Assembly (NCBI GenBank): GCA_016928575.1
Contig: JAFGKK010000069.1
Location: 1-56,064 of the forward strand
Source: Anaerolineales bacterium
GTDB taxonomy: Bacteria; Chloroflexota; Anaerolineae; Anaerolineales; RBG-16-64-43
Reading direction: 5' to 3'
DNA length: 56,064 bases
Shown: piece by piece, positions 5,613 to 29,836 of the stretch
How positions within the stretch are numbered: the stretch's first letter is position 1
Layout of the letters: each line of letters starts with the position of its first letter
Made by a program: the position numbers and the translations under genes
The notes under the pieces: generated by a model
What the model was told of the DNA's origin: nothing
The model's database searches: none
What the model saw: the letters and a program-made list of their open reading frames with translations, nothing else

Positions 5613-7817
5613 ATGAAAAACGCAACAACGGCGGTTTTCATGCTGATAGTCTTGTTTCTTACCGGTTGCTCCGCGGGGCAGACGGCAACCGATCCGGCCG
5701 ACACCGCGGGTGTCCCGGCTTCGCCGACGCCCGCCGCGGTTTCGGAACCCCCGGAACCGGGCTTCGCCCCGATCTTGACTCCGACTCTGACTTTCACTCC
5801 GATTCCGCCGACGGCGACCCCTGAAAAGCTGGCCAACCTCGCGTTGTCGGTGGCGGCAGGCGGCAGCCATACTTGCGCGATCACAAAACGAAACGGGCTG
5901 AGTTGCTGGGGGAACAACGAGCACGGCCAGCTCGGAGACGGCACGGTGACGGACAGCAGCAGGCCGGTGGAAGTCGCCGGTTTGTCCGGCGGAGTGAAAG
6001 CGGTTGCGTTGGGATGGGGGCATACGTGCGCGGTCACTCTCAAGGGCGCCGTGAAATGCTGGGGGTACAACAAGAACGGCGAGCTGGGGAACGGCTTGAC
6101 CGCCGACAGCGCAACGCCCGTGGATGTGGAAAGTCTGGGGTCGGGCGTGACGGCGATCGCGGCCGGCGACGACCACACCTGCGCGGTGACCGGCGGGGGC
6201 GGGGTGAAGTGCTGGGGATACAACGCCTACGGCCAATTGGGCGACGGCACGACCGAAAGCCGCGCCTTTCCGGTCGATGTCGCGGGCGTCACCGGCGGCG
6301 CGACCGCCGTCGCGGCGGGATGGGGTCACACCTGCCTGCTCACCATCCGGGGCGGCGTGATGTGCTGGGGTAACAACGAGGGCGGGCAACTGGGAAACGG
6401 GCGTCCGGAGCCGATGCGATTCAAGATCGCGGACGTCAGCGGATTAACCGCCGGCGTATCGGCGATCGCCGCCCACGGAGGCCATACCTGCGCGATGACC
6501 GCCGAAGGCGGTCTGAAGTGCTGGGGGTATAACAAATACGGCCAGCTCGGCGACGGCACGTCGGAGAATCGCAATCTTCCGGCGGCGGTGAATAGGATCG
6601 GCCAGGTTGTGGCCGTAGCGCTGGGATCGAACCATACCTGCGCGCTCGCCCGCGACATAGCCGCGTGCTGGGGGGACAACTTTACCGGGCAACTGGGAGA
6701 CGGGACGCAAACCACCCATCCGGAGCCGGTGCCAGTTGCAGAGGATCTGATCGCGATCGCGGCCGGCGGCGCGCACACCTGCGCCGTCACCGCCGGGGGA
6801 GGCGTGCGATGCTGGGGGAGCAATTCCGCCGGGCAATTGGGAGACGGGACGACAAGCAACCGGAACGCGCCCGTCTATGCGGTCGGCTGGGATGAATGGA
6901 TCCTGGAGCTCGGCGGGCTGGACGCGCAAACCGGCATAGTGACGGCCCTGGCATTTTCCCCGGATGGAAAGCTGTTGGCCTCGGGCGGGACCGATGGAAA
7001 ACTGCTCATGTGGGATACCGCCGCGGGAGAACGGCTTTTCGCCGTGCAGTACGACTTGGTCGAAATCATCCACCTCTCCTTTTCGCCGGACGGATCCATG
7101 CTCGCCTCGGTGAGAGCGGATGGAAAAATTATCTTTCTGAATTCGTCCGACGGGCGGATGATTCGAAGCTTGGATGGATTGTATTGGGGAGTGGTGTCGC
7201 CGGATTGGAAGACCGTCGCCTACGTACTCCGGGATGATTGCGGGGACTTTTCCCTCCGGTTGTTTGACCTCGCCGAGGGAAAGGATCGGTACGATCTCGG
7301 CGCCTGTCGCGAGTGGCTTGCGTTTTCCCCGGATGGCAAAATGCTGGCTTGCGGAGTTGTCGCCGGGAATATCAGATTATGGGATACCGCCACCGGCGGC
7401 CTGTTAAGCTCGCTGACGGGGGAGATGGGCTATTCCGGCCCGCTTTCGTTTTCGCCGGACGGGAAATGGATCGCCGCGGCCACGGACCGGAATTCGCAAG
7501 GTGGTGGGTTCGGGTTGTGGAGCGTCGAACAGGGTAAGGAAGTCCTCGTCCTCCAAGGGCGGGTGAGCAGCGTCATTTTTTCCGGTGACGGGAATATCCT
7601 GATTTCCGGGTCGTATGACGGTATGCTGAAATTCTGGGATGCCGCGACCGGGCGGTTGCTGCGCACACTGAGGCAAACTACGGAGAGGGATGCGTACGGA
7701 TGGTCCTCCGAGGGGATTGCCTCGCTCGCCCTGTCGGCCGACGGCGAGCTGTTGGCTGCGGGCCTGATAAACGGATCCGTCCGCTGGTGGCGGATTTCTA
7801 CGCCGCCGGCGAGTTGA
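5613..7817 (+). CDS. RCC1/WD40 twin-propeller lipoprotein (paralog A)
   Basis: The 734-residue product has a lipoprotein signal ending in LFLTGC (Cys19), a Pro/Thr tether to about residue 72, seven RCC1-type blades (about 76-428) and then seven WD40-type blades (about 437-734). Each RCC1 blade carries the pattern HTC, nine residues, CWG, followed by GQLGDGT; the first cysteine of blade 1 is residue 88. The WD blades end in LLMWD, IRLWD, LKFWD and similar, each introduced by FSPDG. Seven blades is the closed number for both folds, so two complete propellers on one lipid anchor are expected, facing outward. RCC1 and WD40 folds are interaction scaffolds; no ligand or enzymatic activity is predicted. 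Paralog B follows 138 bases downstream with the same architecture. Confidence 0.92.
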   Translation: MKNATTAVFMLIVLFLTGCSAGQTATDPADTAGVPASPTPAAVSEPPEPGFAPILTPTLTFTPIPPTATPEKLANLALSVAAGGSHTCAITKRNGLSCWGNNEHGQLGDGTVTDSSRPVEVAGLSGGVKAVALGWGHTCAVTLKGAVKCWGYNKNGELGNGLTADSATPVDVESLGSGVTAIAAGDDHTCAVTGGGGVKCWGYNAYGQLGDGTTESRAFPVDVAGVTGGATAVAAGWGHTCLLTIRGGVMCWGNNEGGQLGNGRPEPMRFKIADVSGLTAGVSAIAAHGGHTCAMTAEGGLKCWGYNKYGQLGDGTSENRNLPAAVNRIGQVVAVALGSNHTCALARDIAACWGDNFTGQLGDGTQTTHPEPVPVAEDLIAIAAGGAHTCAVTAGGGVRCWGSNSAGQLGDGTTSNRNAPVYAVGWDEWILELGGLDAQTGIVTALAFSPDGKLLASGGTDGKLLMWDTAAGERLFAVQYDLVEIIHLSFSPDGSMLASVRADGKIIFLNSSDGRMIRSLDGLYWGVVSPDWKTVAYVLRDDCGDFSLRLFDLAEGKDRYDLGACREWLAFSPDGKMLACGVVAGNIRLWDTATGGLLSSLTGEMGYSGPLSFSPDGKWIAAATDRNSQGGGFGLWSVEQGKEVLVLQGRVSSVIFSGDGNILISGSYDGMLKFWDAATGRLLRTLRQTTERDAYGWSSEGIASLALSADGELLAAGLINGSVRWWRISTPPAS

Positions 7818-7955
7818 AAATTTGAACTCTGCTCAGGCTAGGGCCGTGGAAAAAGATCCCGGTCATCCCGTTATCCCTCAATTCCGAAGGAATGGGGGGA
7901 CGTGATCTTGAGGGGAAAATGAATCGAACTTCCTCGGCGCTTTAAGGAGTCGAAT

Positions 7956-10219
7956 ATGAACCCCAAAACGTTCCTGTCCGGATGGATTTTTCTCCTGCTC
8001 GCCGGATGCGGATCTTCCGGCGCCGTTTCGGATTCCACTCCGTCCATTGCCTCCCCGGGGCTCCCTGGGCACACGAATACCCCGTCGATGACTCTGACGC
8101 CCAGCCCGACGGTGGGTTCCTCTCCGATATCCGCTCCGACGGTCCTTATTCCCACAATCGCTGTTCCGTCCGCCACTCCCCCGACGGCTTTCGGTTTGGA
8201 TGTCGCCGCCGTTCTCGCCGCCGCCGGCCCGGATCACACTTGCGTCACGACGACGGCCGGGGGGGTGAAATGCTGGGGGAAGAACGACCGCGGGCAATTG
8301 GGCGACGGGACGACCGCCGACAGCAACAAGCCGGTCGATGTAAAGGGATTCGCCGGCGGGGTCAAGGCGATCTCGGTGGGCGGGGCGCATACGTGCGCGT
8401 TGTCGGATTCCGGCAGGGTGATGTGCTGGGGGGCGAATGACCGGGGGCAATTGGGAATCGGCACCACCGCTGACAGCAGCCTGCCGGCGGAGGTGCAAGG
8501 TCTGAGCGAACGCGTATCCGCGATCGCCGCCGGCGGGAGTCACACGTGCGCGGTGACGGTCGGCGGCGGCGGGTTCTGCTGGGGCGCCAACGAAAGCGGC
8601 CAACTCGGTGACGGGACGACGGCCGATCGCCTCATCCCTGTTCGGGTCGGCCCTGAAGCGGATGCATGGAAGGGAGTCGCGGCAGGCCGGGGGCACAATT
8701 GCTTTCTGACCACCGCCGACGGCGTGAAGTGCTGGGGCGCCAATCAAAGCGGTCAGCTCGGCGACGGCAAGGGGGTGGAATCCCGCGCTTTGCCGGTGGA
8801 TGTCGTTGGATTGGCCGGCGGTGTATCCGCGGTCGCTGCCGGGGGCGAGCATACCTGCGCGCTCATGGCAACCGGCGGCGTGAAATGCTGGGGCGACAAC
8901 CGGTACGGCCAGCTCGGCGACGGCACGCGCACCAACCGCTATGTCCCGGTCGTCCTGCTGGCGCTGGGCCGCGGCGTATCCGCGGTGGCTGTCGGAACGA
9001 CCCATACCTGCGCCGTCCTCGGAGGAACGGTGAAATGCTGGGGGTGGAATTACTACGGACAATTGGGCGACGGGACGAAAATGACCCAGAATTATCCGGT
9101 GTCCGCGAAAGCCGTGCCCGCGGATGTTTCCTCGATCGCCGCCGGGGATCACACTTGTGCGGTGACGGGGCGCGGGGGCGTTCTCTGTTGGGGCAGAAAT
9201 GTCTCCGGCCAACTGGGGGATGGGACAACCTTCGACAGCGCTTCGCCGGTCGACGTGCCCACGCTCCACGATCCCCTGCGGATGTCGGAAATCCAAGCTC
9301 TTTCCGAGTGTGAAGGCAACGATTCTCTGCCGCTGGCGGCGTTTTCGCCGGACAGCGGACACCTGGCATGCATTGCCGATTCCCAGGAGGTTGTCGTGTG
9401 GCGGCTTTCGCCGTGGCAGGAGGAGAGGAGGATCTTCGTTGACCGCGGCGGCTTAAACGCGATCGGGTTTTCTCCCGACGGGAGAACGCTTTTGCTGGCA
9501 TCCTTTATTTTTCGTGGATCGCGAATCCTGACCATCGGATTATTCTGTGGGATCTGGAGACGGATCGAGAATTGGCATCCTTCCCCGGAATGCAGCCGGT
9601 GGCTTTCTCCCCGGACGGAAATCGGATCGCGGTCTGTTCGGAAACCTGCGGTCTCTCCTCCTATTGCATCGAGGTATGGAATCGAACCTCCGGGGAAAAG
9701 GAAATCACCTTGAAGCTGAAAGAAAATTCTTACGAAACGTGCGACTCGGTCTCGTTCTCGCCGGACGGCAAGAAGCTCGCCGGCAATTGCAGATGGTTGC
9801 GCGTATGGGATCTCGGCACCGGAAACCTCTTGGTAAAACTGAAGTCGAAAAACAGCGGTTACCATAGCGCGATCTTCGGAGCGTTTTCTCCGGACGGGAA
9901 GAGCTATGCCTACGTGCCGGAATCCGATCCGCCGGAGCGCGTCGATTTTGTGGATCCCGAGACCGGCCAGCTCCTTCGCACCATTCCGCAGGCGGAAGAT
10001 TCCGGGTATTCTTTTTCCTTTCTGTTCTTCCTCCCGGGCGGCGGTTTGCTGGCCGTCGGAGGACCGCAGGGCGTGACGTTTTGGAATGTGGGAACTTCGA
10101 AAATGATCCATGCGATCGGCATGCGGGGATGGGTTCGCAATTTGGTCGTTTCTCCGGATGGACGGTGGATGGTTTCCATAGAGGCGACCGGATACATGCT
10201 GTGGGGGAGTCCGAATTAA
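7956..10219 (+). CDS. RCC1/WD40 twin-propeller lipoprotein, frameshifted (paralog B)
   Basis: This gene starts at an ATG behind AAGGAG and encodes a lipoprotein signal with lipobox LLAGC, a Pro/Thr tether and seven HTC...CWG blades, then WD40 blades. The first frame runs to 9713, but its WD pattern breaks after LNAIGFSPDGRTLLLASF near 9505. The pattern resumes one frame back at DHRIILWDLETDRELASF (from 9530) and continues to a stop at 10217-10219. Joining the frames yields exactly seven WD40 blades, matching paralog A, so the ancestor was intact. The break sits by TTTATTTTT, so a one-base loss, real or from assembly, is likely. No classical slippery heptamer is in the correct frame, so programmed frameshifting is not favoured. 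Confidence 0.82.
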
Positions 10220-10508
10220 TCGTGTGGCGGAATACGGTGCGCGGAAGATCGCCTTCAAATTAATCGCGGCGGCTTGCCTCGCTGTTCGAAAATATTACCC
10301 GGTCAACCGGGCGGTTGAGGATCTTTCCCCGGGAAGGGTGGATCCCGTGCTCACGGTCGGCCGCGTCGGTGCGGGTTAACGCAAAGGCGGTTCTCGGAGC
10401 CGTACAATGAGGCGATTTTGCCGCCCGCCATTCCGGGAGGCAACGCGGATAAAAAAACCGCCGGCCGACAGTCAGTATTCGGACCGTCGGCCGTCGGCCG
10501 CCGGGCTT

Positions 10509-12002
10509 TCACCAAAGCGAAATGATCCCGTCGAACGCCTGCTGAAGCCGATCCTGCAGCAGGTCCAATTCGCGGTCCAAGTCCAAACCCGGCGTGGATT
10601 CGTACAGATCCCGGAACGCTCCGAGGATTTCCCCGGACGCATCCGGGTTGGGGAGCCGCTCCTGGTGATGGGGTTTGTCGACGTACCCCATCGCGTCCAG
10701 AAACACCTGGTAATCCGCGTCCGGAAAAGCCCCCCGGTTCCGTTCGATCGCCGCCGGTTGCAGGCTTGTCCGCGCCGGGAGGCCGTAATAAAACAATTCG
10801 TCCACGAAATCGTCGGGATGGTCCCAGAGGAATATCACATCCAGCAAGTCTTGCGCGTACTCTCCCAGAAGCAACGCCAACGCATCGAAGGAAGCCTGCG
10901 GGTTTTTCGCCAGCCGCAGAACGCCGAACACGTCGGCCTGCAGCCGGGCGACCGGGCGGTTGCCCGGAAAGGAGGGGATGGCGGCCACATCCCAGTCGAT
11001 CGGCTTTTCCCGCCAGAAACATCATGTCAACCAGGTGTTCTGGGGCACCATCGCGACCATCCCGCTGGCCAGGTGAGCCCCATACAGGTTATCCAATGAG
11101 GTGTTCTCCGTTCCCGTGGGGAGGAAATGGTCGTTCCACATCCCGCGGTAGTGCCACTCCGCAGCCCGGCGCCAGATGTCCGGTATGACGGCGCTTCCAT
11201 CCCCGCCGACCATGCTCGCCGCTCCCAAAAAAATCCATTGCCCGCGGATATCATTGGGCCATTGCGAGTAATACCCCCACTGTACGGTTTCGGCTGGGTT
11301 AAAACCCGGATCCGCGGCGTTCCTTCCGGAGGCGTCGAGCGTCATCTGCATCCCGATCCTGCGCAATGCGTCGAAGGTCCACGGTTTGCCCTGGTAATCC
11401 GATTCCCAGCTGTGGGGGGGATAGGGAATTCCGGCGGCGTCGAACAATGCCTTGTTGTAAAAAAGCGCGGAAGGAAACTCGACGATCGGCAGGGCTTCCA
11501 GCCCGCGGCCGGGGCTGCGCAGCGTATCGATCAACGCGGGGTGGAAATCGCTCAAGTCGTACCCGGTTTCCGCGACCAGCGGGTCGAGGTCGAGCCACGC
11601 GTTTTCCATGCCCCATAAGCGGTCTACTCCCATCGGCCCGACGATGTCGGGGGGATCGCCGGAGGCGATCTCCGATTGCAGAACCTCCGCTGCGACCGCG
11701 TTGGTGTAAATTTCAGGGACGAGAACGAACTTCCCCTGTTGATCACGGTTGAACCGTTCCACGAATGCCCTCAGGTTTTCAAGCCGTTCCGGCTCGTTGC
11801 CGGTGTGCAGGCCAATGAACCAGCGGATCGTCACCGGCCCGCTCGGCGTCGCGCTGGGGGCGGGCGAGGCGGCGGCGGTTTCCTGCTCCGTGGCGGAGGG
11901 GATGACAGGGGCGTACGTCGGCGTCAGGGCGGAGAATGTGCTGCAGGAGATGGATAAGAATCCAAAACCTACGGCGAGCAGGGTCAGGGCTTTTCTCTTG
12001 AG
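10509..12002 (-). pseudogene. Broken ABC sugar-binding lipoprotein (extracellular solute-binding protein family 1)
   Basis: Conceptual translation gives a typical carbohydrate ABC solute-binding lipoprotein: hydrophobic signal with SISCS, a Thr/Pro tether, TIRWFIGLHTGNEPE, GDPPDIVG, LFYNKALFDAAGIPYPP, a WTFDALRR segment, and IDWDVAAIPSFPGN towards the end. Two lesions are visible. A TGA at 11022-11024 interrupts the frame between PQNTWLT and CFWREKPIDWD, while both sides stay in the same frame. No ATG, GTG or TTG exists in frame between the signal peptide and the palindrome upstream; the codon where a start is expected (12000-12002, before KRKALTLL) is CTC. No permease genes lie beside it. 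Probably a decayed orphan. Confidence 0.75.
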
Positions 12003-12100
12003 GCTTCCGGTTTTTCCCCTTGCAATTTCTTTTACTCGGGCGAATCGGCGGAATTCGTAATTGCGTGGCCGGCATCCGTGGGATCGTCGAATGTCGGCGG

Positions 12101-12149
12101 ACCCCGGCTTCGAGCACCCACGCGGAGCGTGGGTGCTCGAAGCCGGGGT
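12101..12149. repeat. Perfect 23-bp inverted repeat, member of a dispersed family
   Basis: The left arm (12101-12123) begins ACCCCGGCTTCGAGCACCC and the right arm (12127-12149) is its exact complement, with the three-base loop GGA. The core CCCCGGCTTCGAGCACC recurs at about 26871, inverted at about 34817-34836, and degenerate at about 42870. It sits directly upstream of the broken solute-binding gene. Confidence 0.9.
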
Positions 12150-12478
12150 GACGGAAAAAACCTGGAACGCGGCAGCGCCAGGTTGAGATGATTTCCTGGA
12201 AATCAACAGCCGAAACAGACCGGGATTTTAACACCTCTCTCCGTAGATCGCCTGTCCGGCATCGATCGCGAGGCTGAAGGCCGGCCGAAGTCGCCCCCGC
12301 CTTTTCTCTCATTCCCCGCTCTGTCCCGCTCCGATCCGCATGGAAGGCGCATGGTCTGGGAGAAAAATGTCCGGCGAAACGGCCGTTCCGGAGATGCAAA
12401 ATTGCCACAAGTCCGTAACGCCTCGAAAAACGGATCGCCTATAGAATGGAAGGGAATACCTTTCTGCGAGGAGGCGGC

Positions 12479-14887
12479 ATGAACATTCGAACCGAGTCGG
12501 CGGCTAAGGGAATTCTCACTCTGGTTTTCCTGGCACTGGCGGGCTGCGCGCCGGGCGGAACGGTTGAGGGCGGCGGGGGATTTCCCCCGCCGGCGACCTG
12601 GACGTCCCCGCCGACCGAATTATTTGAATCCACACCGACCCCGTCCTCAACGTCCACGCCTTCTTTTACCCCTGCACTTGGCATCGAAGCCGCCGCGATT
12701 TCGGCGGGCCGCCGGCATACCTGCGTCCTCACTCCGGGGGGAACGGTGATGTGCTGGGGCGAGAACGAGGACGGGCAGCTGGGCGACGGAACCACGATCC
12801 GCAGGACCGCCGCCGCGGATGTGTCCGGTCTGTCGGAAATCTCGGAGGTGGCCGCCGGATTCAACCACACCTGCGCCCGGACGGCCGACGGCGGCGTGTA
12901 TTGCTGGGGGAACAACGCCTACGGTCAACTGGGCGACGGCACCCAGACCAGCCGTACCCCTCCCCAGCAAGCCCGCCTTCCGATACTGGCCATGTCGATC
13001 TCCTCCGGCACCATGCACTCCTGTGCGACCGACGGCCGTTCGGTCTATTGCTGGGGGATCGTGGAACACCGCTTGATGCAGGGGGAGTACGTTGTCGAGA
13101 TATCCTTCAAGCCCGCGCAGATCGATCTCGGCTGCCTCCCGCTCGGGACGCAGATCGCGGAGATCCGCTCCGGAGCGAACCACGATTGCCTGCTCACCGC
13201 CGCAGGCGAGGTGTATTGCTGGGGGCGCAACGATCTCGGCCAGTTGGGGCAAGGGCGGGTTTCCTTCTCCAGCAACACTCCCGTGCGCGTCGACGGATTG
13301 AAACGGCCGGTGAAAAGCTTGGCGGTGGGGGGATACCACACGTGCGTCGTCCAATCGGATGGAACGGCGGCTTGCTGGGGATACGACCGCTACGGCCAAA
13401 CGGGCGAACTGTACGCATCCGCCAGCGTGGTGACAATCCCGATGAAAGTGCCGGGGATCCAATCCGCCTTGGCGATTTCGGCGGGCGCCTATCATGCCTG
13501 CGCAACCGACTCGGGGGGAACCGTTAAGTGCTGGGGCGACAACCGCCATCGCCAGGTGTTCCCGTTGAAGCTGGATTTCGGCGAGATCGGAACCATCCCC
13601 GGGGACTACCGCGCGGTCGCCGCCGGCGGATACCATTCCTGCGCGCTGACGGCGGACGGCGCGGTGCTGTGTTGGGGAAACAACAAATACGGCCAGTTGG
13701 GGGAGAACACGGCCGTTCCGCTGACCGAACCGACGGCGGAGCCCACCCGCGGAGAGACCAAGGCGCCGCCGACATCCACCCCGTCTCCGACCCCGGAACC
13801 GGCGAACCGGGCTGTTTCCATCGCCGCCGGACGCAGCCACTCCTGCGCCGTGACCACGGCGGGAGGCGTGCGCTGCTGGGGCAAAAACGAGCATGGCGAA
13901 CTCGGCAACGGGACCTTCACCGACAGCATCATCCCGGTGGACGTGATCGGGCTGTCCTCCGGCGCGGCGGAGGTGGCGGTCGGTTGGGGGCATTCCTGCG
14001 CCTTGATGGCGAACGGCGGCGTAAAGTGCTGGGGATACAATAAAAACGGCGAGCTCGGGAACAGGTCCGGCGAAGACCTTAACCGGCCGGTGGATGTGCG
14101 CGGGTTGTCCGGTGGAGTGGCGGCCCTGGAGGCCGGCGACGACCATACTTGCGCGCTTCTTTCCGACGGCCGGGTGAAGTGCTGGGGCTTCAACCTCTAC
14201 GGCCAGCTGGGCGACGGCACGGCCGAAAACCGAAGTGCGCCGGTGGAGGTCGCCGGCTTGCACGGCGCGGTGAAGGCCGTCGCCGCCGGCTGGGGCCATA
14301 CCTGCGCGCTCTACGAAACGGGCGGCGTGAAATGCTGGGGCAACAACCATTACGGCCAGCTGGGCATCGAGGCCGAGAAGGAGAACATCCACGAGCCGGT
14401 CACCGCCAGCGGGTTGGCCTACGGCGCCACGGCGCTCGCGGCCGACGGCGGGCAGACCTGCGTGATCACCGATCGAAACCTGGTGATGTGCTGGGGCAAC
14501 AACAAGTACGGCCAGCTGGGAGACGGCACGGCGGAAGTCCGCAAGCTCCCGGTCGTCGTCGTCGGTCTGACCCTCAAACCGGCGGCGATCGGCGTGGGCT
14601 GGAATCACACTTGCGTCGTCGACGCCGAGGGCGAGATGGCCTGCTGGGGTTGGAACTACTACGGCCAGCTGGGGAACGGCATGCGCACCACGAGCACCGT
14701 GCCTCTCCGCGCCGACGCGATGATGGGCGGGATCGTGCGGATCGCCCTCGGCTGGGGCCACGTGTGCTCGATCGCCGACGGCGGCGGCGCGCAGTGCTGG
14801 GGATTGAATGAGTTCGGGCAGGTGGGGGACGGTTCGACCGCGGATTCCTACCTGCCCATCGATGTGCTCGGTCTTTCCGGCTTGTAG
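12479..14887 (+). CDS. Double RCC1 propeller lipoprotein (paralog C)
   Basis: The ATG at 12479 follows GAGGAGG and opens a signal peptide ending LALAGC; an ATG 11 codons upstream lacks this spacing. The 802-residue protein has a short Pro/Thr tether, seven RCC1 blades, an internal Pro/Thr linker (PPTSTPSPTPEPA) and seven more RCC1 blades. The first propeller is eroded: blades 3, 5 and 6 have lost the GQLG motif, although every blade keeps both cysteines. The second is regular and matches, blade for blade, the propellers of paralogs A, D, E and F (for example GWNHTC with WNYYGQLG in its sixth blade). This looks like fusion of an old and a younger propeller. Predicted to be surface exposed; ligand unknown. 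Confidence 0.92.
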   Translation: MNIRTESAAKGILTLVFLALAGCAPGGTVEGGGGFPPPATWTSPPTELFESTPTPSSTSTPSFTPALGIEAAAISAGRRHTCVLTPGGTVMCWGENEDGQLGDGTTIRRTAAADVSGLSEISEVAAGFNHTCARTADGGVYCWGNNAYGQLGDGTQTSRTPPQQARLPILAMSISSGTMHSCATDGRSVYCWGIVEHRLMQGEYVVEISFKPAQIDLGCLPLGTQIAEIRSGANHDCLLTAAGEVYCWGRNDLGQLGQGRVSFSSNTPVRVDGLKRPVKSLAVGGYHTCVVQSDGTAACWGYDRYGQTGELYASASVVTIPMKVPGIQSALAISAGAYHACATDSGGTVKCWGDNRHRQVFPLKLDFGEIGTIPGDYRAVAAGGYHSCALTADGAVLCWGNNKYGQLGENTAVPLTEPTAEPTRGETKAPPTSTPSPTPEPANRAVSIAAGRSHSCAVTTAGGVRCWGKNEHGELGNGTFTDSIIPVDVIGLSSGAAEVAVGWGHSCALMANGGVKCWGYNKNGELGNRSGEDLNRPVDVRGLSGGVAALEAGDDHTCALLSDGRVKCWGFNLYGQLGDGTAENRSAPVEVAGLHGAVKAVAAGWGHTCALYETGGVKCWGNNHYGQLGIEAEKENIHEPVTASGLAYGATALAADGGQTCVITDRNLVMCWGNNKYGQLGDGTAEVRKLPVVVVGLTLKPAAIGVGWNHTCVVDAEGEMACWGWNYYGQLGNGMRTTSTVPLRADAMMGGIVRIALGWGHVCSIADGGGAQCWGLNEFGQVGDGSTADSYLPIDVLGLSGL

Positions 14888-15180
14888 CAGGGATGCCCGG
14901 GCGGATTCTTCGCATGGGCAAGATTCCGAAAAACAACCGGCCGCGGATGTTGCAGCTGCGGACGGTTGTCCTTCCTCCCCCCATACGCCCGGCGCCTTTT
15001 CCAAGAAATGCGTTCCTCCCCGCCGTAGGAGAATTCCGGGTGATTCCCCTGTATTTTGGGGCGGGACCTATGTCGGTTTTGACACACCTCTGCCGGAATC
15101 CCGTCACCCGATTCTGATAGAATTTCGCTTGATGGCGGTATTCTTTGCCCCTCTCCGCGGGGAATTGCGAAGGAAATAGC
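14888..15180. other. Intergenic, no gene recognised
   Basis: Nothing coding was recognised. A GAAGGAAA ribosome binding site for the LCP gene lies at the right end. TTGACA occurs at 15079-15084 and TAGAAT at 15118-15123, but 33 bases apart, so they do not form one promoter. Confidence 0.4.
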
Positions 15181-16302
15181 ATGCGCTCTCTGTTCAAACC
15201 CCGCAATCTTCTGCTTGTGGCGCCGGTCGTCCTGATCGCGGCCTGCCTGGCGGCCTACGGCGGATTCCGCCATTGGGCGCCGGCCGCCCCGCGCGAGGAT
15301 CTGACCCCCACCTGGACCCCTTTTCAGCCCGCCACCGATACGCCGGACGCTCCCGCAAGCCTCCCGACCCGCGGAGGGCCGACCGAAACCGTCGCCACTC
15401 CCCGCCCGCTCGCCACGCCGACTCCATCCGGCATCGCGCCGCCGTGGTCGCCCTTCGCCGGCCCGGTCCACCCCGCCTCGACCCAAATCCCCACCCCGGC
15501 CGCGGAGATCGAAACCGGCGCGGATTCGATGACCGTCGCCCTGCTTGGAATCGATAAAAGCGAAACCGCCGGCGCGTACCGCACCGACGCGATCATGGTC
15601 CTCCACCTCGATAAGGAGCATTCCTTCGGCTCGCTGATTTCCTTCCCGCGCGACCTGTACGTCTACATCCCCGCCTATGGGATGCAGCGCATCAACATCG
15701 CCTTCCAGCAGGGGAAGGAACTCCACTATCCGGGCGGGAGCTTCGCCCTTTTCCGCGACACCCTGCTCTACAACTTCGGCTTGCGGGTCGATCATTACGC
15801 GCTGATGAACTTCCAGGGCTTCAAGGACATGATCGACCGGCTCGACGGAATCGACGTGAACGTGGAGCGGACACTCATCGACTACCGGCACGGGTACGGC
15901 AGCCGCTACACGATCGAAGCCGGGATGCGGCACATGGACGGATCGACGGCGCTCTGGTATGTGCGCGCCCGCCAGACCACCAGCGATTTCGACCGCACCC
16001 GCCGCCAGCAGGAAGTGATCGTGGCGATCGCCAACCGCCTCCTGGACCTGCGCGCGATCCCGAACCTCCCGGGCTTTTTTAATATCTTCATGGAGTATTT
16101 CGAAAGCGACCTGACGCTCGACATCATTTCCCCCTTCGCGGAAATGGCGGGATCGGTCTCGCTCTCCTCCCTCGGCCGCTACCGGATCACCTCCCCGGAG
16201 GGCTGCAGCAATTGGAAGACACCCGAGGGGGGGATGGTCCTGCTTCCGAAGTACGACGCGATTCGCGCGATGCTGAGGGAGGCGTTAAGCCCGCCCGGGT
16301 GA
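15181..16302 (+). CDS. LytR-CpsA-Psr (LCP) family glycopolymer transferase
   Basis: The 373-residue protein starts at the ATG behind GAAGGAAA. It has one N-terminal membrane anchor (LLLVAPVVLIAACLAAYGG), a Pro/Thr-rich extracytoplasmic stretch to about residue 110 and an LCP domain. Family marks include ALLGIDKSE near 120, YRTDAIMVLHLD, the arginine motif SFPRDLYVYIP near 157, and YVRARQTTSDFDRTRRQQ. LCP enzymes transfer undecaprenyl-linked glycopolymers to the wall or to surface proteins. The C-terminal segment with SPEGCSNWKTPEG resembles the usual end of such proteins. It lies 60 bases upstream of RCC1 paralog D on the same strand, so it may be co-transcribed with D and E. Confidence 0.9.
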   Translation: MRSLFKPRNLLLVAPVVLIAACLAAYGGFRHWAPAAPREDLTPTWTPFQPATDTPDAPASLPTRGGPTETVATPRPLATPTPSGIAPPWSPFAGPVHPASTQIPTPAAEIETGADSMTVALLGIDKSETAGAYRTDAIMVLHLDKEHSFGSLISFPRDLYVYIPAYGMQRINIAFQQGKELHYPGGSFALFRDTLLYNFGLRVDHYALMNFQGFKDMIDRLDGIDVNVERTLIDYRHGYGSRYTIEAGMRHMDGSTALWYVRARQTTSDFDRTRRQQEVIVAIANRLLDLRAIPNLPGFFNIFMEYFESDLTLDIISPFAEMAGSVSLSSLGRYRITSPEGCSNWKTPEGGMVLLPKYDAIRAMLREALSPPG

Positions 16303-16362
16303 CCGTGCGGGCAGGGCGGGGACCCGCGGCCGGTGCGGACGGATTCCCTCAAGCGAGGAATT

Positions 16363-18849
16363 GTGCCGAGGAAAATCTTGATTGCCTTCAGCTTCGCGTT
16401 CTTCCTGGCCGGTTGCGGCACGCTGAACGTGCATATCGAACTCGGAGATACTCCGGTGTCCTCTCCGACTCCGGCTTCCTTGGAAGCCGCCGGCGCAACT
16501 CCCGCCCCGAGTGCGACGCCTTCGAAAACGCCCGAACCTGGCGGACCTCCTTTTAATTCTCCCACGGACGAAGGTCAAATCCCGCAGGGGATCCAAGTGG
16601 TCGATCTGGCGGCCAATCGGGATCATACCTGCGCGGTGACCGATGCGGGCGGGGTGAAATGCTGGGGAAACAACGAACACGGCCAGTTGGGAAACGGGAC
16701 GATAGTCAGCAGCAGCCTCCCGGTAGATGTGTCCGGGGTGACGGACACCGTGGCGGTCACGGCCGGTTGGGGGCACGCCTGCGCGCTCACCGCCGGCGGC
16801 GGGGTGAAATGCTGGGGCTACAACGCCAACGGCGAATTGGGCAACGGACGAACCGCGGACAGCGCCGTGCCGGTGGACGTCCAGGGATTGGAATCGGGGG
16901 CGGTCGCCGTCGACGCGGGCGACGATCACACTTGCGCGGTGACGGAAGACGGCGGATTAAAATGCTGGGGGTGGAACGACTACGGCCAGCTCGGCGATTG
17001 GACGAAGGACGCGCGCAGCATCCCGGTCGCTTCGCCGTTCTTCGGGGGCGGGGTGGCGGACGTGGCCGCGGGCTGGGGCCATACCTGCGTCCGGACGGCC
17101 GAAGGCTGGGCGAAGTGCTGGGGGAACAACGAATACGGGCAATTGGGATTCGGCAAGACGACCGATATCCACCTCCCGGCGGCGGATGTGGTCAACTTGA
17201 GCGGCAGGGTGTTGCAAGTCACGGCGGACGGCGGCCAGACCTGCGCCCTTACCGCCGGAGGCGGAGCGCAATGCTGGGGGAACAACCGCTACGGACAGCT
17301 GGGGGACGGCGCAAATCAAAAGAAGTATGAACCCGTTCCGGTGCAGGGGTTGGCGTCGGGCGTCGGGCGCATCGAAGCCGGTTGGAACCACACCTGTGCC
17401 TCGGCCGGCGGAGGCGAGCTGTTGTGCTGGGGCTGGAACTACTTCGGCCAGCTGGGCGACGGGACGACGCTCAACCGGAATACGCCGGCGCGCGTCCGTC
17501 ACCTGACGGACGGGGTGGTGGAGATCGCCCTGGGTTGGGCCCACACCTGCGTGCTGTCCGAACTCGGCGCGGTGAAATGCTGGGGGGCGAACTCCTCCGG
17601 ACAGCTGGGCGACGGAACCGTGAAGGACAGCGCGGTTCCGCTTGCGGTCGTCGGCCTGCCCGGGGCGGGAGGATCGGCTTCGGAGCGGACCGTCGCGCCC
17701 TCACCGACCGGCCGGGAGACGGAACGGCCGACCCCCGCCGCCACCGCGACCCACACCCCGCCGCCGGAGGTTTCGCGGGCCTTGGCCGTCTCCGTCAACA
17801 GCACGTTCACTTGCGCCTTGATGAGCTGTGGTGCGGTTAATTGCTGGGGAGACAACACCTACGGAGGGTTGGGCGACGGCACCGTGCACGACAGCGCTCT
17901 GCCGGTGGCGGTCCAGGGACTCCGCGGCGACATCGCCGCGATCGCCGTCGGCTCCGCCCACGCCTGCGCGCTGCGGACCGACGGCGCCATGCAGTGCTGG
18001 GGGAAAAACACGTCCGGCCAATTGGGGGGAGGATTTGTTTCCAACGGCAGCAATACCCCGGTGGATGTCGTTGTCCTCGACGGGGAAATCAACGCCATGG
18101 CTCTGGGTTCGGACTATACCTGCGTGTTGACCGCCGCCGGCGGGGTGAAATGCTGGGGCTGGAACCACTCCGGCCAATTAGGCGATGGAACCAATGTCGA
18201 AAGCCGAACGCCGGTCGACGTCGTCGGCCTTTCCGGCGGCGTGATCGCCGTCTCGGCGAGGCTGTCCACCACCTGCGCATTGCTCGAGGGCGGATCGGTG
18301 GAATGCTGGGGCGGGATGGTCGGCGAACCGTCGGGCGACGGCGCGCCTGCGGACAGCAACGTGCCTCTTCCAATTAAAGGATTGTCTTCCGGGATGACAA
18401 GCATCTCCGCGGGCTGGTTTCATGCCTGCGCGCTGACGGCCGGGGGCGGCGCCAAATGCTGGGGGGGCAACAATTACGGCCAGTTGGGAATCGGAACGAA
18501 GTCGCTATGGGAATTCCCGGCGGACGTCGTGGAGCCGGCGGATGATTTCCTGGACATCCGGGTCGGCAACGCGTTTACTTGCGCCCGGACCAAGGCGCGG
18601 GGCGTGAAATGCTGGGGATCGGTCAACGAGGCCCGCCTTTTTGAAGCGCCCTCGTTCACCGATCAGCCCCTGCCGCTGGAGGTTGGCGGACTCTCCGGGG
18701 GCGTCGCCTCCCTGGACGTGGGTTGGGGATACGCGTGTGTGATCACAACCGACGGCGACGTTATGTGCTGGGGATCCAACCGGGACGGGCAATTGGGAGA
18801 CGGCACCCATACGGACCGCATGGCCCCCGGCGTCGTGGTGGAGCTGTGA
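16363..18849 (+). CDS. Double RCC1 propeller lipoprotein (paralog D)
   Basis: The GTG at 16363 is favoured because AGCGAGGAATT precedes it and the signal peptide (PRKILIAFSFAFFLAGC) then has normal length; a GTG at 16333 is the alternative. The 828-residue protein carries seven regular RCC1 blades, a Pro/Thr linker (RPTPAATATHTPPPE) and seven divergent RCC1 blades. In the second propeller blade 4 reads CWGGMVGEPSGDG and blade 6 CWGSVNEAR, so the turn motif is lost while both cysteines stay. The mature start CGTLNVHIELGD is echoed in paralogs E (CGTLQIDIDYGW) and F (CGTLRVDVDLAS). Its stop overlaps the ATG of paralog E (TGATG), suggesting translational coupling. Confidence 0.91.
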   Translation: MPRKILIAFSFAFFLAGCGTLNVHIELGDTPVSSPTPASLEAAGATPAPSATPSKTPEPGGPPFNSPTDEGQIPQGIQVVDLAANRDHTCAVTDAGGVKCWGNNEHGQLGNGTIVSSSLPVDVSGVTDTVAVTAGWGHACALTAGGGVKCWGYNANGELGNGRTADSAVPVDVQGLESGAVAVDAGDDHTCAVTEDGGLKCWGWNDYGQLGDWTKDARSIPVASPFFGGGVADVAAGWGHTCVRTAEGWAKCWGNNEYGQLGFGKTTDIHLPAADVVNLSGRVLQVTADGGQTCALTAGGGAQCWGNNRYGQLGDGANQKKYEPVPVQGLASGVGRIEAGWNHTCASAGGGELLCWGWNYFGQLGDGTTLNRNTPARVRHLTDGVVEIALGWAHTCVLSELGAVKCWGANSSGQLGDGTVKDSAVPLAVVGLPGAGGSASERTVAPSPTGRETERPTPAATATHTPPPEVSRALAVSVNSTFTCALMSCGAVNCWGDNTYGGLGDGTVHDSALPVAVQGLRGDIAAIAVGSAHACALRTDGAMQCWGKNTSGQLGGGFVSNGSNTPVDVVVLDGEINAMALGSDYTCVLTAAGGVKCWGWNHSGQLGDGTNVESRTPVDVVGLSGGVIAVSARLSTTCALLEGGSVECWGGMVGEPSGDGAPADSNVPLPIKGLSSGMTSISAGWFHACALTAGGGAKCWGGNNYGQLGIGTKSLWEFPADVVEPADDFLDIRVGNAFTCARTKARGVKCWGSVNEARLFEAPSFTDQPLPLEVGGLSGGVASLDVGWGYACVITTDGDVMCWGSNRDGQLGDGTHTDRMAPGVVVEL

Positions 18850-20303
18850 TGAAACTGTCGCTTGATTTTCTTGTTCGGTCATGGGCAAGGGCGAGGCGCT
18901 TGCGGCGGACGGCGAAAGCGGAACGCTTGCCGGCGGTGACGTTGTGCCTCCTCCTGGCCGGCTGCGGCACCCTGCAGATCGATATCGACTACGGATGGAC
19001 CCCGGCTTCCGCGGGTTCGCAAACCGCCACCCTCTCCGCGACGCAAACGCTGTCGCCGCTCCCCCCCACTCCGTCGCGGACCTGGAGCCAAACCCCCGCC
19101 CGGCTGGAGACCGACACCCCGGCCCCGGGGGCTCCGTCCATCCTCCGCGCCGCCGCAATTACCTCCGGCGAAAACCACACCTGCATCGTCACCGACTCCG
19201 GCCGGGTATTGTGCTGGGGCAACAACGAGCACGGCCAGCTCGGCGATGGAACGATGGTCAACCGTGCCGTCCCTGTCGCGGCGGCCGGGGTGGAGAACGC
19301 CATGGCGGTGGCCGCGGGCTGGAAGCACACCTGCGCCCTTACCTGGGAGGGGAAGGTGCTATGCTGGGGCTACAACAGGAACGGCGAACTTGGCAACGGC
19401 AAGACTGTCGACAGCAGCCTTCCGGTGGAGGTCGGCGGCCTGGCTTCCGGGATCCGGACGATCGGCACCAAGGAAGACCATACCTGCACCGCGTCGATCG
19501 AAGGCGGCGTGCAGTGCTGGGGGTACAACGAATTCGGCCAGTTGGGCGACGGGACCCGGACCAGCCGCAGCGTGCCGGTTGATGTTCCGGGATTGGCGGC
19601 TGTGGTCTGGGAAGTGGTGACCGGGTGGGGGCACACGTGCATCCTTTCCGAGGACGGAGCGGTGCGGTGCTGGGGGAACAACGAGTACGGACAATTGGGG
19701 TACGGCCAGGAGGCGACCCTGCGGCTTGCTCCGGTGGATGTCCTCGGCCTGCAAAGCGGGGTGATCGGCATCAGCGCCGCCGGCGCCCAGACCTGCGCGC
19801 TCCTTAACGGCGGCGCGGTCCGCTGCTGGGGGAATAACAAATACGGCCAGCTCGGAGACGGGACGACGGAGATCCGCCTCGGCCCGGCGGCGGTCGCGGG
19901 GCTCGGGCAGGGGGCCGCCCGGGTAGCGGCGGGGTGGAACCACACCTGCGCCGTGATGGGCAACGGCGAATTGAAATGCTGGGGCTGGAATTACTACGGG
20001 CAGTTGGGCGATGAAACCAAAATCCTGCAGACCCGGCCGGTAAACGTGCGCCGTTTGATGGAGGACGCGGTCGAGGCCGCCCTCGGCTGGGCGCATACCT
20101 GCGCCATCACGGCCGGAGGCAGCGTGAAATGCTGGGGGCGGAACGATTCCGGCCAGCTCGGCGACGGGACAACCATCGACAGCCCGGTCCCGCTGGCCGT
20201 CGTCGGATTATCCGGGACCTCCGGTTTGACCCCGACGTCGGAATTCAGGCCGACGTTGACCGGCACGCGGGCCGTAACCTACACGGCAACCCCCGGAGAA
20301 TAA
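18849..20303 (+). CDS. Single RCC1 propeller lipoprotein (paralog E)
   Basis: The ATG overlaps the stop of paralog D by one base. The 484-residue product has a long, strongly basic N-region (RSWARARRLRRTAKAER) before the hydrophobic core and lipobox LLLAGC, then a Pro/Thr tether and seven RCC1 blades. Blade signatures match those of A, the second half of C, the first half of D, and F: NNEHGQLG in blade 1, NRNGELGNG in blade 2, EDHTC in blade 3, NNEYGQLGYG in blade 4, NNKYGQLGDGT in blade 5, WNYYGQLG in blade 6. A Thr/Pro-rich tail of about 30 residues follows the last blade. The basic N-region may reflect an over-long start, but no better start is visible. Confidence 0.9.
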   Translation: MKLSLDFLVRSWARARRLRRTAKAERLPAVTLCLLLAGCGTLQIDIDYGWTPASAGSQTATLSATQTLSPLPPTPSRTWSQTPARLETDTPAPGAPSILRAAAITSGENHTCIVTDSGRVLCWGNNEHGQLGDGTMVNRAVPVAAAGVENAMAVAAGWKHTCALTWEGKVLCWGYNRNGELGNGKTVDSSLPVEVGGLASGIRTIGTKEDHTCTASIEGGVQCWGYNEFGQLGDGTRTSRSVPVDVPGLAAVVWEVVTGWGHTCILSEDGAVRCWGNNEYGQLGYGQEATLRLAPVDVLGLQSGVIGISAAGAQTCALLNGGAVRCWGNNKYGQLGDGTTEIRLGPAAVAGLGQGAARVAAGWNHTCAVMGNGELKCWGWNYYGQLGDETKILQTRPVNVRRLMEDAVEAALGWAHTCAITAGGSVKCWGRNDSGQLGDGTTIDSPVPLAVVGLSGTSGLTPTSEFRPTLTGTRAVTYTATPGE

Positions 20304-20509
20304 AAAGCCCATCCCCGGGAGTCTCCGGGAAGAAATTGTGATCTCCATAAAAAACTCCCCCCAAGAGCACTTCCCCCCATGCTTTTGGAATGGGGGGCTG
20401 AGGAATTCATCCATAACCTATATGGAACCCGGGGAGGAGGGCGCGCGGGCCCGCGCGGGAGCGGCAAAATGATCGTTGCGACCACGGATTTTTTGGAGCG
20501 GAAAAGGCG
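20304..20509. repeat. Intergenic hairpins between paralogs E and F
   Basis: CCCCCCAT (20373-20380) pairs with ATGGGGGG (20390-20397) as a short stem, and CGCGCGGGCCCGCGCG (20442-20457) is a perfect 16-base palindrome. Neither is followed by a T run, so they are not typical terminators. GGAGCGGAAAAGGCG just before 20510 serves paralog F. Confidence 0.5.
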
Positions 20510-21979
20510 ATGCGGATAACGAATGGGGCGGTGCCGCTTGCGGCCGCCGGGCTGACAGCCTTGCTGGTGGGCTGCGGGACTCTCCGGGTCGACGTGGATC
20601 TGGCATCGAATACCGGGGGCACCGCCACGGCTTTCCCTTCCTCCACGTCCCTTCCACCGCTGGTGTTTGCGCAAACGCGCATATCTCCCAGCCCCTCGCC
20701 GACCCGGGAAGCCACGCCGACGCCGACGGTCCACGGCCTGGCTTTTTCGGGCGCCATCGCCGTCGCGGCCGGCAAGGCGCATACCTGCGCCGCATTCGAC
20801 GACGGCGTTGTGAAATGCTGGGGGTTGAACGAGCATGGACAATTGGGGAACGGCGGGGCGGTCGACAGCAACGTCCCGGTTGCGGTGGCGGGGTTGGCGG
20901 ACGCACGGGCGCTCGCGGCGGGTTGGGCTCACACCTGCGCCCTGACCCGTTCCGGCGGCGTGAAATGCTGGGGATACGGCAGGAACGGCGAACTCGGCAA
21001 CGGCGGAAACGCCGACAGCCACGTACCGGTGCAGGTCGTCGGCCTGACTTCGGGCGTGGTCGCGATCGAAGCCGGGGACGACCACACCTGCGCGGTGACC
21101 GCCGCCGGCGGCGTGAAATGCTGGGGATACAACCCCTACGGCCAGCTGGGCGACGGGACAACGGCCAACCGCAGCGTTCCCGTCCCGGCGAACGGCTTGG
21201 CCGGCGGAGTCCGCGCGGTGACGGCCGGGTGGGGGCACACCTGCATCCTCACGGCGGAAAAGAGCGTCCAGTGCTGGGGCAACAACGAGTATGGCCAGCT
21301 GGGGTACGGCGAAACGGAGGAGTACCGATTCACCCCGATGAACGTGAAAGGATTGGCGCGGAGCGCCGAACAGATCTCGGCCGACGGCGGCCAGGCCTGT
21401 GCGCTTACGATCTACGGCGGAATCCGATGCTGGGGCAACAATGAATACGGACAGCTGGGCGACGGGACGGTGGTAAACCGCAGCGCCCCGGTTGCGGTCG
21501 GAGGTTTGGCGCAGGGGATGCGCTGGGCGGAAGCCGGCTGGAACCACACCTGCGGCATCGACCGGAACGGCGCCGTGCTGTGCTGGGGATGGAACAATTT
21601 CGGACAGTTGGGCGACGGAACGAAGGCGACCCGGTCCAAACCTTCCGGAGTGTACGGGTTAACCGAGGGAACGGCGGCCGTCGCCGTCGGCCGGGCTTAC
21701 ACCTGCGCGGCGGCGGAATCGGGCGGAGTGAAATGCTGGGGGCTGAACGACGTCGGCCAACTCGGCGACGGCACCTACGAGGACAGCCAGGTCCCGGTGC
21801 GGGTTTTCGGATTGGGGGATCGGACCTCGCCGGCGGAACCGCCCGCCGAAACGGGCGTTCCGACGGCAACCGTCACGCCGGCCACCCCGACGATGACATC
21901 GACGGCGGTCCTTCCGACGGACAACGTGCCGCCCCCGGGGATGAAGATGGCGACGCACACGCCCACCCCGAAGCGGTAG
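20510..21979 (+). CDS. Single RCC1 propeller lipoprotein (paralog F)
   Basis: A 489-residue lipoprotein with signal MRITNGAVPL... and lipobox LLVGC, the mature start CGTLRVDVDLAS shared with D and E, a Thr/Pro tether and seven RCC1 blades. The blade-specific signatures of the family are clear (LNEHGQLG, GRNGELGNG, GDDHTC, NNEYGQLGYG, GWNHTC with WNNFGQLG). Every blade holds the paired cysteines nine residues apart. It ends in a long Thr/Pro/Val-rich tail of about 55 residues (GVPTATVTPATPTMTST), which looks like a linker to a lost second domain. It is 206 bases behind paralog E with hairpins between, so it may have separate transcription. Confidence 0.91.
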   Translation: MRITNGAVPLAAAGLTALLVGCGTLRVDVDLASNTGGTATAFPSSTSLPPLVFAQTRISPSPSPTREATPTPTVHGLAFSGAIAVAAGKAHTCAAFDDGVVKCWGLNEHGQLGNGGAVDSNVPVAVAGLADARALAAGWAHTCALTRSGGVKCWGYGRNGELGNGGNADSHVPVQVVGLTSGVVAIEAGDDHTCAVTAAGGVKCWGYNPYGQLGDGTTANRSVPVPANGLAGGVRAVTAGWGHTCILTAEKSVQCWGNNEYGQLGYGETEEYRFTPMNVKGLARSAEQISADGGQACALTIYGGIRCWGNNEYGQLGDGTVVNRSAPVAVGGLAQGMRWAEAGWNHTCGIDRNGAVLCWGWNNFGQLGDGTKATRSKPSGVYGLTEGTAAVAVGRAYTCAAAESGGVKCWGLNDVGQLGDGTYEDSQVPVRVFGLGDRTSPAEPPAETGVPTATVTPATPTMTSTAVLPTDNVPPPGMKMATHTPTPKR

Positions 21980-23894: not shown

Positions 23895-24136
23895 GGGCGT
23901 CTGCCTTGGCGGATTCCGCCGGGGAATGGGGTATATGATACTGTGTTTTCCGGCGGAGCGGTATCGCGCCGCCGCCCGGATCCTGCGCCGACCGCCGACG
24001 ACGGTCACGCCCAACGCCGAGAGCGGCGGCCGGATTTGGGATACAATCAACGTACCCGGGCAGGTTTTTTCGGCGTGATCCGGAACGGATCGCACGCAGG
24101 CTGCCTGACGGAAGAATCCCTCTGGAGGTGGGCACC

Positions 24137-25258
24137 ATGCGCCGTTCACCAGCAATCGCCGCCGGATTATCCCTGCCGCTGATCGCGTTCGCCTCCGCCT
24201 GCGGCCTATCCATGGGAGGCGGGGCGTCAGGCTCCTCCGCCCTCTCCGCCGGAGGGAACCAGACCTGCCTGATTGCGGCCGGCGGCGCGAAGTGCTGGGG
24301 CGACAACCGCGTCGGACAGCTCGGCGACGGGACGATGGAGAACCGCAACGTTCCCACGCCGGTCACCATCCTGAGCGAAAAGCCAACCGCCATCGCCGTC
24401 GGGTACACCTACGCCTGTGCCCTCACCGCGTCCGGCGGGATCTTTTGCTGGGGCAGCATGGTCTTGGATTCTCCGGATGGCGGACAATTCGACGGATATC
24501 GGGCGGTGGCCGCCGGAACCACCCATATCTGCGGTCTGACGACCTCGGGCGGGGTGAAATGCTGGGGCAGCAACGCTTTCGGCGCCCTGGGGGACGGCAG
24601 CACCGAGGACCGGCCGGTCCCCGTCGAAGTCTCGGGATTGGGACGCGGGGTGAGCGCCATCGCCGTCGGCGTGGATTTCTCCTGCGCGGTGCACAACCGC
24701 GGCGTGAAATGCTGGGGGTCCAACGACACCGGCCAGCTCGGCAACGGATCGTATTCCGGAAGCATCATCCCGTCGGATGCGTCCGGGCTGCAATCGGACG
24801 TGGCCGGCATAGCGGCCGGCGTGTTTCACGCCTGCGCCTGGAAAACTTCCGGCGAAGTCTGGTGCTGGGGGGACAATCTGATCGGGGAACTGGGCGACGG
24901 AAGCGGGACCAACAGCCCCTTCCCGGTCCGGGTGATCGGCCTGGAGGAGGGGGCGAAGGCGGTGGCGGTCGGCGGCAGCCATACCTGCGCGTTGACCAAG
25001 ACCGGCGGTGTGAATTGCTGGGGCGGCAACTCCTCCGGGCAGCTGGGCGACGGCTCGACGACCGATCGCAACGCCCCCGCGACCGTATCCGGGCTCTCGA
25101 GCGGCGTGGCCGCCATCGCCGCGGGCGGAAGCCACACCTGCGCCCTGCTCGATAACGGTTCGGTGAAGTGTTGGGGATTGAACGACGACGGCCAGTTGGG
25201 GAACGGGGGCAACGCCAACAGCAACACCCCGGTCAACGTGGCCTTCCCGGCGGGCTGA
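24137..25258 (+). CDS. Single RCC1 propeller lipoprotein (paralog G)
   Basis: The ATG at 24137 follows TGGAGG; a GTG at 24128 overlaps that site and is less likely. The 373-residue protein has a lipobox FASAC, a very short tether and seven RCC1 blades. It lacks the Thr/Pro linker and most blade-specific signatures of paralogs A to F. Blade 2 is shortened (CWGSMVLDSPDGGQFDGY), and blade 3 has GALGDG in place of GQLGDG. The cysteine pair is present in all seven blades. It is transcribed away from the two-component operon. Confidence 0.9.
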   Translation: MRRSPAIAAGLSLPLIAFASACGLSMGGGASGSSALSAGGNQTCLIAAGGAKCWGDNRVGQLGDGTMENRNVPTPVTILSEKPTAIAVGYTYACALTASGGIFCWGSMVLDSPDGGQFDGYRAVAAGTTHICGLTTSGGVKCWGSNAFGALGDGSTEDRPVPVEVSGLGRGVSAIAVGVDFSCAVHNRGVKCWGSNDTGQLGNGSYSGSIIPSDASGLQSDVAGIAAGVFHACAWKTSGEVWCWGDNLIGELGDGSGTNSPFPVRVIGLEEGAKAVAVGGSHTCALTKTGGVNCWGGNSSGQLGDGSTTDRNAPATVSGLSSGVAAIAAGGSHTCALLDNGSVKCWGLNDDGQLGNGGNANSNTPVNVAFPAG

Positions 25259-29405: not shown

Positions 29406-29836
29406 CGCCGATGCGGCTCCGTGAGGATAATTGTAATCGATGCCGCTTTTCAAACCATCCATGCGCCGACGCACACCATCCTCATGATCGGAAATCCATC
29501 CCTCGCGCCCGCCCTTGATTCGCCCGGGAAGCGAGGGCGGCGGGAGTGTTTCCGTCGAGCGCCCGCTTGCCAAATCCCGGGAGCGCCGCCAAAATCACTC
29601 GGGCGCGACGATCAAACGACGGTGAGCCTTTGACCAAGAACGCCTGCCCCGCCCTTGGTCGCGGATTGGTTCTCAAATAACTTTTCGCGGTTTGAAGCGC
29701 GGTGTTCCATCCCCAGCGCCCGCCGCCCTGGGCGGTGCATGCCTCGGCATGCGCGGCGCGAGGAACCAACGGCTTTGGTATACTCCTGCGCAGTCAATCC
29801 GCCATCCTCCCGCGAGAATCCGGAATCTTCCCGCAT
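29406..29836. other. Divergent intergenic region, no gene recognised
   Basis: This 431-base region separates paralog H (minus) from the NlpC/P60 lipoprotein (plus), so it should contain promoters for both. I found no convincing -35/-10 pair. It shows a short GCATGCCTCGGCATGC palindrome near 29740. Open frames crossing it are shadows. Confidence 0.4.

Follow-up and report, generated by a model that had tools for sequence, protein, structure and literature searches.

Among the described systems closest to the locus presented here, the plant ultraviolet-B (UV-B) photoreceptor UVR8 has an RCC1-type propeller fold with a GWRHT motif in blades 5 to 7 (PMC12692308), and three of its tryptophan residues, Trp285, Trp302 and Trp337, are located at the dimer interface (PMC7455749). 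In old, differentiated propellers such as the G-protein β subunit, equivalent blades of homologs are closer to each other than are the different blades within one propeller, whereas freshly amplified propellers show the opposite pattern (PMC9218822). The stretch of DNA analysed here, referred to as the window, is contig JAFGKK010000069.1 (C69; 56,064 nucleotides) of the 3.84-Mb draft genome of an Anaerolineales bacterium (GCA_016928575.1). It holds a row of eight genes, A to H (Table 1), with RCC1-type blades, and the blades of several of these genes correspond to each other by position in the ring, as in the G-protein β subunit. An earlier reading of the sequence alone had counted 77 blades, and this count holds: seven each in A, B, E, F and G, and 14 each in C, D and H, where the two propellers are denoted C1 and C2, D1 and D2, and H1 and H2. 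All seven repeats score above the curated cut-off of the RCC1 profiles (PF00415, PF13540 and PF25390), as expected for a seven-bladed propeller, and PF00415 has 106 matches in the genome as a whole.

A blade-position code shared by whole propellers

For pairwise comparison, the blades were cut at the CWG motif, and each pair of propellers was scored in the natural blade order and in all 5040 possible orders. For each of the ten pairings of A, C2, D1, E and F, the natural order ranks first or nearly first (p 0.0002 to 0.0006; z 3.4 to 5.0), and the best rotation is the unrotated one in every case. The identity in this group is 0.548 for blades at the same position across genes, compared with 0.457 for different blades within one propeller. 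When position labels are traced for the 35 core blades on a maximum-likelihood tree that includes all 77, they require 8 changes (the minimum being 6), against a mean of 24.5 and a lowest value of 20 in 300 shuffles, so that these blades group by position as the sequence-only reading had anticipated. The gene label requires 27 changes on the same blades, with a shuffled mean of 21.9, and a clustering by gene in every paralog, which that reading had named as the contrary outcome, did not appear. Because each blade is closer to the blade at the equivalent position in the other genes than to those next to it in the ring, we conclude that A, C2, D1, E and F were duplicated as whole propellers, with their blades already distinct. 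An alternative in which the blades were amplified afresh in each gene, and their positional likeness is due to chance or convergence, carries hardly any weight; propellers do often arise by fresh amplification of single blades (PMC9218822), but the permutation and tree tests, and the lower identity within than across propellers, are all opposed to it.

A leave-one-out profile test agrees with the permutation and tree tests that distinct blades predate the multiplication of the genes, with z values of 3.3 for A, 4.8 for C2, 4.7 for D1, 4.7 for E and 4.9 for F. The same test adds members to those named previously, namely B (z 3.5) and two loci outside the window, C87 (z 3.7) and, more weakly, C38 (z 2.5), and it finds the code absent in C1, D2, G, H1 and H2. 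In a tree of whole propellers, C38, B, A, C87, C2, D1, E and F form a single clade, where the support joining B to the rest is 95/76. These eight copies retain the blade-specific residues of their founder, although the pattern is weaker in B and C38. The motif signatures formerly assigned to individual blades are present at the blades named, with exceptions in A, E, F and C2. Blades 4 to 7 of A deviate (NNEGGQLG, HGGHTC, GSNHTC/DNFTGQLG and AGGAH), as do blade 5 of E (AGAQTC), blades 5 (DGGQAC/NEYGQLG) and 7 (VGRAY) of F, and blade 2 of C2 (NGELGNR).

The expectations for the propellers that lack the code were not borne out. The blades of H had been thought to group by gene, but the gene label requires 13 changes, as in shuffled data (13.1), and G and H, proposed to form one branch, are dispersed in the tree, with G, H1 and H2 in separate places and H1 and H2 not sisters. 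An internal duplication of H was discarded, since H1 and H2 match at no rotation and are not sisters in the propeller tree either. Circular permutation was likewise considered for G, H1, H2, C1 and D2, whose seven rotations were compared with the code members; about 950 tests gave nothing beyond chance.

Descent of the code within one genus

Scanning 84,980 species genomes yielded 77 loci, from which an external set of 76 loci with about 98 propellers was obtained. With the sister genome excepted, the code was found in none of these propellers, the best z being 2.76 with several offsets for each. Samples of genomes from the order (301) and the class (396) yielded no locus with the code either, and the family's three remaining genomes gave no match. 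Within these external propellers and samples, a code older than the genus finds no support. Because of this absence outside the genus, the code marks descent from a single founder propeller; it has so far been seen in this genus alone and is not typical of RCC1 propellers generally. A literature search on bacterial RCC1 surface families, per-blade disulfides and this organism gave nothing specific.

The nearest relative among the genomes scanned, which belongs to the same genus, has a contig of 38,668 bases. In this sister genome, D', E', F', G' and H' are found in the same order, accompanied by the same LytR-CpsA-Psr, kinase/regulator and MreB genes. Comparison of the two genomes shows gene H in inverted orientation with respect to the genes around it. 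The blades of D1, E, F, G, H1, H2 and C87 match one-to-one between the species (z 5.2 to 5.6), and H1 and H2 each keep their own blade order. In the whole-propeller tree, the pairs D1/D1', E/E' and F/F' are each supported at 99–100%, and G/G', H1/H1' and H2/H2' are placed apart, with H2 joining an off-window propeller on contig C135 and not H1. Because of the one-to-one match of blades, the duplications that gave rise to D1, E and F are older than the split of the two species.

Genes A, B and C are missing at the sister locus. Just upstream of its LytR-CpsA-Psr gene, a leftover blade on contig C56 (12520-12657) resembles the last blade of C, and gene C was therefore probably lost in the sister species. 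A decayed single blade is also present directly after E' (18044-18181). The two propellers of gene D differ in their conservation. D1 is 75% identical between the species, whereas D2 and D2' (D' spanning 14071-16653) are 40% identical, the level of unrelated propellers, and their blades do not correspond (z -0.55). Either replacement of D2 or its divergence beyond recognition would account for this, and these alternatives are not separable because synonymous sites are near saturation. The ratio of non-synonymous to synonymous substitution rates of the propellers is 0.14 to 0.26, which corresponds to purifying selection.

Concerted evolution offers a different account of the positional likeness, in which gene conversion among tandem copies keeps blade n alike, so that the likeness would be recent and not a trace of the founder. 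In keeping with this account, the genes form a tandem row, and cross-matches between RCC1 blades are hundreds of bases long. It is nonetheless very improbable: E is 73% identical to its ortholog but 54–57% identical to A, D1 and F of the same genome, orthologs are joined first in the tree, and no near-identical DNA tracts were seen between paralogs within one genome. Identity at four-fold sites between paralogs is low (0.36 to 0.56), and for this reason recent gene conversion was rejected as the source of the likeness.

Position of the code within the blade and a candidate binding face

Strand boundaries were taken from a predicted model of the E propeller, which has 28 strands and a predicted local distance difference test score (pLDDT) of 95.3. 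With offsets counted from the Cys of the CWG motif as zero, the code columns are at −15, −14 and −13 in the AB loop (z 5.5 to 10.7) and at +3, +5, +6, +8 and +11 in the CD loop (z 6.2 to 8.9); a column-wise test of the blades found none in the BC turn and C strand. The AB and CD loops share one end of a blade built from four antiparallel strands, which would place the main code on a single face. Between species, the AB-loop code sites of D1, E and F are 81% identical, compared with 49% at the BC turn.

Aromatic side chains are prominent among these sites. Trp is found at −14 in blades 2, 4, 6 and 7 of C2, D1, E and the three sister orthologs, and F has three of the four; a further Trp is at +3 of blade 6, and Tyr or Phe is at +3 or +6 of blades 2 to 6. 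In the external seven-blade sets, 117 of 134 have no Trp at −14 and none has four. Unrelated RCC1 propellers mostly have Gly, Ser, Tyr or Ala at this position, and Trp is rare. The closest solved structure to the E model is UVR8 (template modelling score, TM, 0.93–0.94; 33% identity), and in the E propeller (residues counted from base 19134 of the window) Trp268, Trp285 and Trp319 align to the UVR8 interface residues Trp285, Trp302 and Trp337, respectively. Judging from the model and the analogy with UVR8, the AB and CD loops would form one exposed aromatic face. The specific ligand face that the sequence-only reading had deduced from the distinctness of the blades thereby gains indirect support, from loops at the same blade end and from the UVR8 interface sites.

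A pair of Cys residues at offsets −10 and 0, in a cross-strand arrangement, is invariant in the aligned propellers and is present in 942 of 985 external blades. From the sequence, each pair likely corresponds to one disulfide, giving seven per ring, and such a cross-strand bond would form outside the cell.

We regard as probable an explanation in which the family consists of genus-specific surface lipoproteins that arose by repeated copying, as a unit and within the genus, of one differentiated seven-bladed RCC1-type founder propeller. Each lipoprotein would be anchored at the cell surface on a Pro/Thr stalk, and the common aromatic face would grip one class of partner, protein or glycan. An exchangeable second module would vary by gene and confer separate specificity, being of RCC1 type in C and D, of WD40 type in A and B, and absent in E and F.

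The chief rival shares the same duplication history but holds that the code is structural, such that neighbouring blades of the founder had co-adapted and their contacts were kept for folding, with no common ligand. It is consistent with the location of the code sites in loops near the next blade and with the presence of some code in the D strand and DA loop. On the other hand, unrelated RCC1 propellers of the same fold rarely have Trp at −14, the BC turn is equally variable and is not kept by position, and the equivalent Trp sites in UVR8 are interface residues. We therefore assign this rival a distinctly smaller, though appreciable, probability.

A narrower version of the surface-lipoprotein explanation, in which the aromatic face binds carbohydrate, i.e., glycans of the envelope or the environment, appears rather unlikely. 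The face is rich in Trp and Tyr, the proteins appear from their signals to be surface lipoproteins, and LytR-CpsA-Psr, MreB and NlpC/P60 genes are neighbours, but the structure searches found no lectin of RCC1 fold, and such a neighbourhood is only suggestive. By analogy with UVR8, the Trp face might instead be a dimerisation surface, by which paralogs would pair with themselves or with each other and display combinatorial second modules; this we consider unlikely.

Several points weigh against the preferred explanation of surface lipoproteins with a shared binding face. Some code is also present in the D strand and DA loop (mean z about 4), the aromatic set is incomplete in A, B and C38, and the face was assigned from strand topology and from homology with UVR8 rather than from a measured surface. 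Blade-specific packing could keep the same sites without a ligand. The saturation of synonymous sites makes conversion tests and timing coarse, and the lipoprotein signals are a by-eye reading. The partner of the propeller face may be a protein, a glycan or a paired paralog.

The gene row and comparison with known systems

Table 1. Genes with RCC1-type propellers and neighbouring genes in the window
Feature	Coordinates	Strand	Description
Gene A	5613..7817	+	Putative lipoprotein (lipobox-like LTGC) with Pro/Thr linker; code propeller 5826-6911 followed by a WD40-type propeller; member of the code clade
Gene B	7956..10219	+	Putative lipoprotein; propeller 8193-9287 with weaker code, followed by WD40-type repeats with a frameshift near 9510
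Solute-binding protein	10351-11025 and 11022-12206	-	Only the first part of the family profile matched
Gene C	12446..14887	+	Putative lipoprotein; divergent RCC1 propeller C1 12674-13771 (without code), code propeller C2 13796-14884
LytR-CpsA-Psr family gene	15145..16302	+	Between C and D; kept in the sister genome
Gene D	16333..18849	+	Putative lipoprotein; code propeller D1 16582-17679, second RCC1 propeller D2 17764-18846 without code
Gene E	18849..20303	+	Putative lipoprotein; code propeller 19134-20231, Pro/Thr-rich tail
Gene F	20510..21979	+	Putative lipoprotein; code propeller 20738-21835, Pro/Thr-rich tail
Gene G	24128..25258	+	One RCC1 propeller without code
MreB	25476-26483	-	Flanks G/H
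Gene H	27093..29573	-	RCC1 propellers H1 28176-29246 and H2 27096-28175, both without code
NlpC/P60 protein	29702-30910	+	SH3 domains; flanks G/H

Genes A to F all have the same direction, and E begins on the last base of the D stop codon (TGATG). The N-termini are lipobox-like, with LTGC in A, LAGC in B, C, D and E, and LVGC in F, each followed by a Pro/Thr linker. In A and B, an RCC1 propeller is joined to a propeller of WD40 type in one putative lipoprotein, and the WD40 halves are about 28% identical; the change of reading frame in the WD40-type repeats of B indicates a broken gene or an assembly error. The window was searched for relics of a second propeller 3' of E or F, and none was found. 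The solute-binding protein may be truncated or frameshifted, and the MreB and NlpC/P60 genes around G and H constitute an envelope neighbourhood.

Elsewhere in the genome, C103 and C131 each encode a protein of more than 2100 residues, with a C-terminal RCC1 propeller after many repeats ending in YRFR...FWSG..NHC..PGC; these two propellers match blade by blade (z 5.1). The two parts of a single RCC1 gene are found at the ends of contigs C38 and C135, with an overlap of 29 residues, and because this gene spans both ends the two contigs probably join.

The locus provides a clean bacterial case of a repeat ring that was differentiated first and then copied as a unit inside one genus, and the code-free propellers of the same gene row serve as an internal control. 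Conservation by position points towards a single face and supplies a short list of residues for mutation. A constant propeller with an exchangeable second module, including D2, which is unrecognisable between sister species, furthermore constitutes a testable model of how surface binders diversify.

By every tested feature (profiles, predicted model and TM score to UVR8), the proteins are RCC1-repeat propellers. They share the fold with UVR8, and Trp residues at −14 and +3 in UVR8 occupy code sites of the present family. In UVR8, however, Trp at −14 is found in blades 5, 6 and 7 and is followed by Arg, whereas here it is found in blades 2, 4, 6 and 7 without Arg; instead of GWRHT in blades 5, 6 and 7 with Arg286 and Arg338, the motifs are of GWGHT, GWNHT or GWAHT type. 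Unlike UVR8, the proteins appear from their signals to be secreted bacterial lipoproteins, with two Cys per blade, and no function in light perception is implied. UV-B sensing, in which absorption by UVR8 breaks a homodimer, is not proposed, since these proteins lack the UVR8 arginines and seem to be secreted. Nor would Ran binding, as by the RCC1 guanine exchange factor, be expected of a bacterial protein that is secreted.

Further counterparts are bacterial secreted RCC1-repeat proteins (PF00415, PF13540 and PF25390), which likewise have seven matching blades, HTC...CWG and GQLGDG motifs and two Cys per blade, but the relatives sampled outside the genus have neither the position code nor the four-Trp face. 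BLIP-II, a secreted β-lactamase inhibitor, is another secreted binder of RCC1 fold, but the match is weak (PDB code 3qhy, rank 49 in the fold search, TMq 0.57). With respect to blade history, A, C2, D1, E and F show the same pattern across homologs as the G-protein β subunit, which is a WD40 and not an RCC1 propeller, whereas the pattern here is among paralogs of one bacterial genus. What is particular to the present locus is that this pattern occurs in a gene row of a single genus, beside propellers without the code and in combination with the Trp face.

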